From Gammaproteobacteria bacterium (GTDB lineage: Bacteria > Pseudomonadota > Gammaproteobacteria > UBA6429 > Thiohalophilaceae), in assembly GCA_016194635.1 (NCBI GenBank), contig JACQBC010000037.1:124001-188000 (forward strand): a DNA stretch of 64,000 nt, in the 5' to 3' direction. Shown one piece after another: positions 3,169-53,480 of the stretch. A program made the translations under genes and the position numbers. Each line of letters begins with the position of its first letter. Within the stretch, counting starts at the first letter, position 1. A model generated the notes under the pieces. It worked only from the letters and a program-made list of their open reading frames with translations. It did no database searches and had not been told where the DNA came from.

Positions 3169-3593
3169 ACGTTTTCCCCATTCCTAAGGTCATAAGGCGT
3201 TATTGAGATCCAAACTGGATGAAGATACCCGATATTCAAATAGGCGTATCACGCCAAAATTGCTGGGGATCTCACATATTTTGTAATTGTTGTTTTCTGG
3301 AATTACCGCTTTATGGCCGCAGGAGTGAGGCGGGTAACGCATGGATATGATCGTGGGTGACAGGGATGTCGCCGCCGAGCTACAGGGACGTATTTATGCG
3401 TGTCATATCCATGCGTTACCCGCCTCACTCCTGCAACTAACGTCCAACCCCTGCGTTATCTCGCGCAAGGCACTGCAGGTGCTTACCCGTTTGGAGCGAT
3501 GAGTCATACCAAGACCCCACTTTATCCTGGCATCGTGCCCGCGGAATGGGGATAATTGGCAGTCTATTCTCGCCACGCTCAAAGGAGAATCCC
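3169..3593. other. Gene-free stretch holding foldback element A
   Basis: Lies between the divergent lipoprotein and thioredoxin-fold genes. The only strong structure is the foldback element at 3319-3434. The AT-rich part at 3225-3315 probably holds the lipoprotein promoter, but no clear -35/-10 pair could be assigned. Confidence 0.6.
3319..3434 (+). repeat. Foldback element, copy A (32-bp perfect arms, 52-nt core)
   Basis: Left arm 3319-3350 and right arm 3403-3434 are perfect reverse complements over 32 bp (left arm begins GCAGGAGTGAGGCGGG). The core, 3351-3402, aligns without gaps to the cores of copies C, D and E: AGGGAT, then GAG at core positions 26-28, TACAGGGA at 31-38 and GTATT at 40-44. 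The arms share no sequence with the arms of the other copies. No target-site duplication is visible. Confidence 0.9.
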
Positions 3594-24580: not shown

Positions 24581-25172
24581 GATTGCCTCCTTAGATAGTA
24601 TTAATTTTTGGCAAATACTGCTGACGCCTTGATTAAGCCGTCATTAAGATACCTGCCACTGTATGCGGGGCATGAAGCCCCTGCTTTTTATTCCCGCTTA
24701 ATGGAATTGCTCGGCACGTGCGGGTATTGCGTCGTTATAAAGCTAAACATTAGTAAAATAAAATTAGTTTGCTTGCAATAAAAATATTACAAATTTTAAG
24801 CCGCACTTTATAGAAAAGTGCGCAGGCGTGTGCATGTCATGGAAACCACTCGAACAAACGGGCAATAAATTAATAATTAATTAAATTAATATTAAATATT
24901 TATTAATACGCCACAGTGTGATGCGCGCGCGGATCTGGCCTCATCGGCGATTACCAGGCGGCTGATAATTTCAATACCAGGGGATTTATGGTGGTGGGTT
25001 GAACGGTAAAGGCGAAGCCCAGTTACTATAAATGAGGCGTATGGATAGGATACCCCTCCACCAAGACCGTCCGCCGCAGGGATGCTGCTGTCGAGTCTAC
25101 GGGGAGGTATTACGGCGTGTCTTGGTGGGAGGGTATCCTTTCCATGTGACTCCGTAATAACATGGAGAAGTG
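24581..25172. other. Gene-free stretch holding foldback element B
   Basis: The part from 24601 to 25030 is AT-rich and contains no gene I can support; it should hold the YeiH promoter. The right part holds foldback element B at 25041-25145. Confidence 0.6.
25041..25145 (+). repeat. Foldback element, copy B (27-bp arms, 51-nt core)
   Basis: Left arm 25041-25067 and right arm 25119-25145 are reverse complements at 24 of 27 positions. The core, 25068-25118, matches the shared core: GCAGGGATGC, TCGAGTC, TACGGGGAGG, TATT. The right arm and the bases after it (CCATGTGACTC-GTAAT) are nearly identical to copy C, so B and C form one sub-family. It lies 27 nt past the last gene of the chromate-type operon. 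Confidence 0.88.
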
Positions 25173-37988: not shown

Positions 37989-38378
37989 ATGAACAAAAAA
38001 ATCCAATTACTAATGAGTCACATGGAAAGGATACCCTCCCATCAAGACCGTCAGCCGCAGGGATACGGCTGTCGAGTCTACAGGGAGGTATTGACGGTGT
38101 GTCTTGGTGGGAGGGTATCCTTTCCATGTGACTCAGTAATATATGCACCCAGCGATACGGGTGCGGTACAACCTGGACGAGGATTGTTGTGTGGCATGGT
38201 TATACTACTGTTGGCGGGATCAGGTTGTACTTCAGAACGCGCCTATGACTCCGGCCAAGCCTACCAGCGCAACGAATGCAACAAGATCCTCGACAACAAT
38301 GAACACGAACGCTGTCTAAACAAAATCAACACAAGTTATGACGATTATAAGCACCAAACCGAGGAGATCAAACAATAG
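37989..38378 (+). CDS. Small lipoprotein whose signal peptide is interrupted by foldback element C
   Basis: The frame begins MNKKIQLLM after AAGGAGTCGGTA, an ideal basic n-region, but is then taken over by element C (38015-38134), whose translation has no hydrophobic core. The frame stays open and resumes with VILLLAGSGCTSERAYDS, a hydrophobic segment plus lipobox, and a polar 50-residue tail containing CNKILDNNEHERCLNKI and ending KHQTEEIKQ. I infer that the element inserted between n-region and h-region of an ordinary small lipoprotein without shifting the frame. An internal ATG at 38196 could still start a short product but would lack the basic n-region. Function of the lipoprotein unknown. 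Confidence 0.6.
   Translation: MNKKIQLLMSHMERIPSHQDRQPQGYGCRVYREVLTVCLGGRVSFPCDSVIYAPSDTGAVQPGRGLLCGMVILLLAGSGCTSERAYDSGQAYQRNECNKILDNNEHERCLNKINTSYDDYKHQTEEIKQ
38015..38134 (+). repeat. Foldback element, copy C (34-bp arms, 52-nt core)
   Basis: Left arm 38015-38048 and right arm 38101-38134 pair at all 34 positions, with one G-T wobble. The core, 38049-38100, reads CGTCAGCCGC, AGGGATACGG, CTGTCGAGTC, TACAGGGAGG, then TATT. The arms match those of copy B. The flanks ATTACTAAT and AGTAAT extend the symmetry loosely. Confidence 0.9.
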
Positions 38379-52861: not shown

Positions 52862-52981
52862 TTGGTGGTGGCCGGGTTCCCCCGGTGCCGGTGACTCGCT
52901 GTAAATACATCCCTGTACGCTCGATGGCGGCATTCCTGCCGCCAACGGTCACCCACACCGGGGGAACCCGGCCACCACCAA
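52862..52981 (-). repeat. Foldback element, copy D (34-bp arms, 52-nt core)
   Basis: Arms 52862-52895 and 52948-52981 pair at 32 of 34 positions. The core, 52896-52947, matches the shared core when read on the minus strand: CGTTGGCGGC, AGGAATGCCG, CCATCGAGCG, TACAGGGATG, TATTTACAGCGA. Arms resemble those of copy E but differ by several substitutions made in both arms. Confidence 0.9.
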
Positions 52982-53239
52982 CGGAGATAACATGACTTGT
53001 TTGCGAACAAAATAGATCAGAAGTCTGCTCGTCGCGTTGATAGTTATAGAGATAATTAGTGGTTCTGAATTTCCGAGTATTTCACTTAAGGTAATTCCAA
53101 GATGGATATCGGCTGGGGTTTCGTCGAGCAATTGTTGTGTCGAACTAAAGTCCGTGCATCCTTTTCCCTTATACATAGTAAAGTAGAACCATTTTTAGCG
53201 AAAGAAAGAAATCAATCCCAATTATCTCCGAGGATGCGG

Positions 53240-53357
53240 TTGGTGGTTACCGGGTTGACCGGTGTGGGTGACCATCGGCCGCAGGGATGCGGCCGTTGAG
53301 CGTACAGGGATGTATTTACAGCGAGTCACCCACACCGGTCAACCCGGTAACCACCAA
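53240..53357 (+). repeat. Foldback element, copy E (33-bp perfect arms, 52-nt core)
   Basis: Arms 53240-53272 and 53325-53357 are perfect reverse complements over 33 bp (TTGGTGGTTACCGGGTTGAC and so on). The core, 53273-53324, reads CATCGGCCGC, AGGGATGCGG, CCGTTGAGCG, TACAGGGATG, TATTTACAGCGA. Within it CGGCCGCA/TGCGGCCG makes a perfect inner stem closed by GGGA. Confidence 0.92.
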
Positions 53358-53480
53358 CTTCCTCCCCAGACGAAGCTATTTTTTTAATACACCGCTCACT
53401 CTTTCGGGACATCTACTTGAATCAACCGGCTATATTTGCACTATTATATATAGCATAACAACCTGTTATACCGAGCCAGC

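Follow-up and report, generated by a model that had tools for sequence, protein, structure and literature searches.

The 64,000-nucleotide stretch of DNA analysed here (the window) harbours five copies (A-E) of what is probably a palindrome with present or past mobility, the GGA strand of which, if transcribed, would constitute a compact dual CsrA-binding RNA, the binding being deduced from the sequence. The element has a fixed core of ~52 nt and a long outer stem that is nearly unconstrained in sequence but keeps its pairing, is located between genes, mostly near their 3' ends, and has been amplified in a lineage-specific manner. As the same core is also found in Yersinia as YPAL/RU-2, the window copies add new and divergent members to a YPAL superfamily that spans the class. 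A repeat for which the literature we found names Yersinia and Pectobacterium (Erwinia carotovora) as the only hosts is thereby joined to this superfamily. An earlier, sequence-only reading of the window had left both the identity of the element (YPAL superfamily) and the loop motif (ANGGAN, a CsrA/RsmA site) unnamed.

In copy E the core (53273-53324) lies at the loop end of a long palindrome, enclosed by a perfect 34-bp stem (Table 1). Folding the 52 nt of its GGA strand as RNA resulted in two hairpins (-21.6 kcal/mol, z -2.8; reverse strand -16.6), as the sequence-only reading had proposed for the core, including the GGGA-type tips. The stems quoted there are all present, i.e. CGGCCGCA/TGCGGCCG in E, GGCGGCA/TGCCGCC in D, AGCCG/CGGCT in C and, with a T.G wobble, GGTGACA/TGTCGCC in A, and so is its second hairpin, TAC-GGGA-GTA. 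Hairpin 2 of copy E comprises the stem TAC/GTA, the loop AGGGAT, the bulge TTTAC and lower pairs GC..GC in which x-x' is G.A. Copy D is the divergent partner of copy E and carries CAGGAATG as hairpin-1 loop. Copies were scored with R1, a covariance model derived from a class-wide alignment (A2) that had itself been gathered with a pattern fixing CAGGGANG and ACANGGANGT. The window also contains a SAH riboswitch (Rfam RF01057, 57.8 bits) at 500-582 on the reverse strand.

Table 1. Coordinates of the element copies in the window, of the parts of copy E, and of divergently arranged copy pairs.
Feature	Position	Strand	Basis and remarks
Copy A	3319..3434, arms 3319-3350 / 3403-3434 (32/32)	+	R1 61.0 bits; arms unrelated to all others
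Copy B	25041..25145, arms 25041-25067 / 25119-25145	+	R1 65.3 bits; arms resemble those of C; weaker copy
Copy C	38014..38135, arms 38014-38048 / 38101-38135	+	R1 75.3 bits; arms unrelated to those of D and E
Copy D, whole element	52862..52981, arms 52862-52895 / 52948-52981	-	R1 80.0 bits; inverted-repeat search
Copy E, 5' arm of outer stem (34 bp)	53239..53272	+	34/34 complementary to 53325-53358; inverted-repeat search
Copy E, hairpin 1, CGGCCGCAGGGATGCGGCCG, loop AGGGAT (ANGGAN)	53277..53296	+	RNA fold; stem covaries
Copy E, hairpin 2, GCGTACAGGGATGTATTTACAGCG	53300..53323	+	RNA fold; loop free only at both N's (103 source-genome copies)
Copy E, 3' arm of outer stem	53325..53358	+	pairs 34/34 with 53239-53272; inverted-repeat search
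Divergent pairs	window 52862-53358; G000 C10:7104/7411, C36:88379/88646, C36:113189/113450, C1:37750/37986		
Further divergent pairs, G000	C31:299669/300013, C15:27961/28381, C21:28587/28819, C27:165963/166123		

That selection keeps a Y-shaped fold, as the sequence-only reading suggested, is supported by the covariation of hairpin 1 and the arms, by near-invariant unpaired loops and bulge, and by a persistent mismatch. We aligned 51 copies from the source genome and its relatives (A1), which had been collected for their resemblance to copy E using a less strict anchor in hairpin 2, independently of the class-wide pattern. In this alignment 92.1% of the cells were paired (66.9% after shuffling), two-sided cells numbered 469 as compared to 148.5, with 0 of 500 shuffles reaching as high a value, and the covariation score was 0.599, versus 0.123 for shuffled alignments and at most 0.117 for slid structures. 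Covariation among many copies was the check that had been set beforehand, and the 51 copies far exceed both kinds of control. The paired base changes described earlier also held up, two-sided changes being observed for 7 of the 11 pairs in hairpin 1 and for 16 of the 19 arm pairs counted. The upper stem of hairpin 2 (TAC/GTA), in turn, scarcely varies, indicating conservation rather than covariation, and its lower pair x-x' is C-G, G-C, T-A or A-T in the 51 copies and non-standard (mostly G.A) in about half of them.

A second alignment (A3) comprised 103 source-genome copies, which were collected by means of the A2-trained model and aligned to R1. Here, x-x' is C-G in 63 copies and G.A in 22. 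Between copies, 12 left-arm positions are 40% identical and the unpaired core 94%; within copies, 92% of the arm pairs counted are Watson-Crick. The T.T or T.C mismatch of hairpin 1 is kept in 92 of the 103 copies, supporting selection, as mere palindrome correction would erase it. On the GGA strand, G-T exceeds A-C in the arms class-wide (92:47, p 1.7e-4), pointing to this strand as the folded one; in the source genome the ratio is 31:18, which is not significant (p 0.085). Wobble pairs are scarce in the arms (2-4%), so that upkeep of the arms at the DNA level is still conceivable.

The loops resemble the binding motif of CsrA/RsmA, a match noticed post hoc. Hairpin 2 of the 103 source-genome copies is ACANGGANGT and reads A C A N G G A N G T, with G80 A10 C5 T4 at the first N, G41 T40 C19 A2 at the second, and one base in 92-100% of the copies at all other positions (lowest A95 and C96); hairpin 1 is CAGGGATG. 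The consensus of RsmE/CsrA sites is A/U-CANGGANG-U/A and that from CsrA SELEX is RUACARGGAUGU, the bound loops being ANGGAN hexaloops. The hairpin-2 loop of the source-genome copies is such a hexaloop, and its two freely varying positions coincide with the two that are free in the published CsrA/RsmE consensus. Because the class-wide pattern required CAGGGANG and ACANGGANGT, A2 and R1 give no independent support for those letters. A CsrA dimer is able to bridge sites 10-63 nt apart, and in copy E, as read off the sequence, 20 nt separate the GGA at 53285-53287 from that at 53308-53310. SELEX ligands usually have stems of four or fewer pairs, and the stem of hairpin 1 is longer than in most of them.

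The source genome encodes CsrA (PF02599 match, E 3.4e-26). csrA is present in 25 of the 26 element-bearing genomes and in 137 of 158 others, a difference that is not significant (Fisher p 0.32). One genome (G210) has eight element matches and lacks a CsrA match; this assembly is 98% complete, in 270 contigs, and the lack could be a gap. Neither the window, at gathering scores, nor the surroundings of copy E, at E-values up to 10, matched the Rfam models of CsrB, CsrC, RsmY or RsmZ, and no link between YPAL and CsrA was found in the literature searched, which covered few subscription papers.

A rarer form of the element (L032, L291, L294, L295, L296 and L168) contains an insert of ~45-50 nt in hairpin 1 that adds the letters of a third ANGGAN hairpin and often also a CAGGATG hairpin; the extra hairpins are TGCACAAGGATGTGCA, TGTACAGGGACGTACA and GGGCAGGATGCCC. 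Folding these six copies, five from the source genome plus L168, yielded the third ANGGAN hairpin in five, L296 having the letters and folding differently. The letters GGCAGGATG occur in five of the six and fold as a GGCAGGATGCC-type hairpin in some. Repeats of CsrB are CAGGA(U/A/C)G.

R1 recognizes at least ~150 places in the source genome, of which ~138 score more than 50 bits and roughly a dozen are decayed. A genome of the same genus has 2 copies and two from other genera of the family Thiohalophilaceae have ~50 each; in most, no copy reached the threshold applied. Altogether the element occurs in 26 of 184 sampled Gammaproteobacteria genomes, a patchy distribution that argues against a general cellular role. 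Scanning named genomes with a pattern gave 117 stretches, nearly all titled Gammaproteobacteria (among them Halomonas, Marinobacter, Methylococcaceae, Microbulbifer, Rheinheimera, Pectobacterium, Yersinia and Shewanella) and one titled as a Rhodobacteraceae MAG. A pattern scan found no match in viral contigs, and BLAST gave nothing in phages and E. coli genomes and one weak match in plasmids. An in-situ comparison revealed no clear syntenic copies between same-genus genomes, and an empty-site comparison at the copy E locus yielded none, G001 being too diverged there. Stand-alone ANGGAN hairpins outside the family are few, and many of the 18 found resemble diverged members by eye. A lone hairpin with the same loop, GGGGGGAGCCTCAGGGATGAGGCTCCCCC, adjoins a YPAL copy (L106, 7801-7829), and in Alcanivorax (L107) two similar hairpins, AGGGTGACCGCC-ANGGAC-GGCGGTCATAAA, are located near each other at 1317 and 1391.

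We used a simple gene caller to place 104 source-genome copies, none of which is inside a gene. The gaps holding them are convergent in 32 cases, co-directional in 58 and divergent in 14, which differs from intergenic regions at large (p 1.8e-6), convergent gaps being enriched, and the copies are mostly close to gene 3' ends. In co-directional gaps 29 copies are sense and 29 antisense. Thus, there is no orientation bias, and half of these copies would not place their GGA strand in the neighbouring mRNA; a per-locus role of the sense strand is unsupported, as copies are near gene 3' ends in either orientation. Where two copies are close, with 160-420 bp between starts, they are divergent (- then +) in 9 of 11 cases (p 1.3e-4), and the orientation of the surrounding genes varies.

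No IS200/IS605-type transposase (PF01797) was found in the source genome. Flanks of the source-genome copies have no obvious shared ends, and the copies tested there and in relatives showed no target duplications above control. In Y. similis, in which R1 finds 86 copies, target duplications are clear by eye, and in L194, L197 and L209 they consist of a whole hairpin or palindrome (AAGCCCTCGAAAGGGCTT in L194, GGACACCAGATTTTGGTGTCCT in L209). In G012 (L061-L064), G002 (L072) and G007 (L053-L057) the hairpin is part of larger units whose ends are inverted repeats of the GTTCCGAAT type, and it is flipped relative to the flanks between copies of those units (L061 vs L063). Another inverted repeat, GCGAAAAAGGTGTCC / GGACACCTTTTTCGC, flanks the copies L065 and L181.

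The chief rival to the CsrA reading is that the core serves as a transposition substrate, i.e. that the element is selfish DNA whose core is kept as a single-stranded or cruciform hairpin recognised by some transposase or recombinase, its likeness to CsrA sites being accidental. Lineage-specific amplification, the patchy distribution, the Yersinia target duplications, several of which are a whole hairpin, and the units with terminal inverted repeats in G012 and G007 are in line with such an origin, as are the unbiased orientation, the small number of G-U pairs and the divergent pairing of copies. The source genome, however, lacks an IS200/IS605-type transposase (PF01797) and, like its relatives, detectable target duplications, and accidental likeness fits poorly with free loop positions that coincide with the N's of the CsrA consensus and with extra hairpins that repeat the motif in extended copies. 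We therefore regard this explanation as possible, if on the unlikely side.

Alternatively, the long stem might be selected as a 3'-end element that terminates transcription both ways, protects mRNA tails or is cut by RNase III, roles that have been put forward for repeats of this kind, with the core as a passenger. Copies lie by gene 3' ends in either orientation with convergent gaps enriched, the arms are paired yet free in sequence, and a review describes YPAL as expressed with upstream genes, with a possible effect on RNA stability; a role of the stem alone, however, leaves the 94%-identical unpaired core on unrelated arms unexplained, which renders this account doubtful. Paired changes could also arise without selection if quasi-palindromes are corrected by template switching and the copies are merely recent. 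Near-perfect arms and few wobble pairs agree with this idea, but the T.T/T.C mismatch and a TTYAC bulge persist, G-T exceeds A-C, the loops are conserved across the class, and arms of 40% identity indicate that the copies, as a set, are no recent duplicates. Template-switch correction without selection is thus disfavoured, and we consider it improbable.

For the favoured reading, a palindrome carrying putative CsrA sites, we propose that read-through of a neighbouring transcript, or some promoter, may produce an RNA of the GGA strand, and that the long stem would hold a three-way junction presenting two C-G-closed ANGGAN hexaloop hairpins 20 nt apart, a spacing at which a single CsrA/RsmA dimer could bridge the two. 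In extended copies a third ANGGAN hairpin would be present as well, usually together with a CAGGATG hairpin. In this way the element would scatter putative CsrA sites into gene tails, imposing at least a titrating (decoy) load on CsrA, and CsrA perhaps acts on the RNA bearing the element. Counted against CsrA binding are the few G-U pairs for an RNA stem and the orientation of Ysr224, the sole catalogued transcript, whose model represents the opposite strand. It is a tentative and rather speculative extension that a mobile repeat has carried dual CsrA-binding modules into many Gammaproteobacterial genomes, the ~150 copies of a genome such as this one jointly forming a distributed CsrA sponge that shifts the set point of the Csr/Rsm regulon and places gene tails under CsrA control as well. 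Should the RNA prove to bind CsrA, this would be a case of a global regulator rewired by a transposable repeat; the CsrA reading provides a testable reason for the conserved core.

Among known repeats, the element is closest in its core to YPAL or RU-2, the Yersinia palindromic sequence (De Gregorio 2006; Delihas 2007, PMC2759123). Both are intergenic, multi-copy and palindromic with the same two-hairpin core, which the published 168-nt RU-2 sequence includes; the YPAL loops are CCAAGGATGG and TACATGGATGTA. Like YPAL, source-genome copies are intergenic and close to stop codons. According to the review on YPAL, its target duplications are 3 to 26 bp long, with targets spanning or adjoining dyad symmetry, and comparison of empty with filled sites indicates recent mobility. 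Copies of YPAL, however, are uniform, with a length of 167-168 bp, conserved arms and target duplications, whereas source-genome copies have unrelated arms and no detected duplications, and we thus file the element as a branch of the YPAL superfamily, not as YPAL itself. Rfam RF02770 (Ysr224), a family built on Yersinia copies, is the reverse complement of a Y. similis copy (126.5 bits) and matches copy E weakly (E 0.0027, 22 bits as compared to a gathering score of 70).

With CsrB, CsrC, RsmY and RsmZ the element shares GGA hairpin loops and two sites spaced for one CsrA dimer, with more in extended copies. Each of those sRNAs, however, comes from a single locus and has many sites (E. coli CsrB has 22 GGA), whereas the element is a dispersed repeat with two. 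GTAG- and CGTC-tagged REPs and BIMEs are likewise dispersed intergenic palindromes that frequently form inverted pairs (PMC3733652). REPs, however, are single hairpins of 20-40 bp, whereas here a core of two hairpins tops a long stem that varies and mostly measures 25-47 bp. The IS200-type transposase of the GTAG REP/RAYT system has no counterpart in the source genome, and CGTC-REPs are likewise without a known transposase (PMC3733652).
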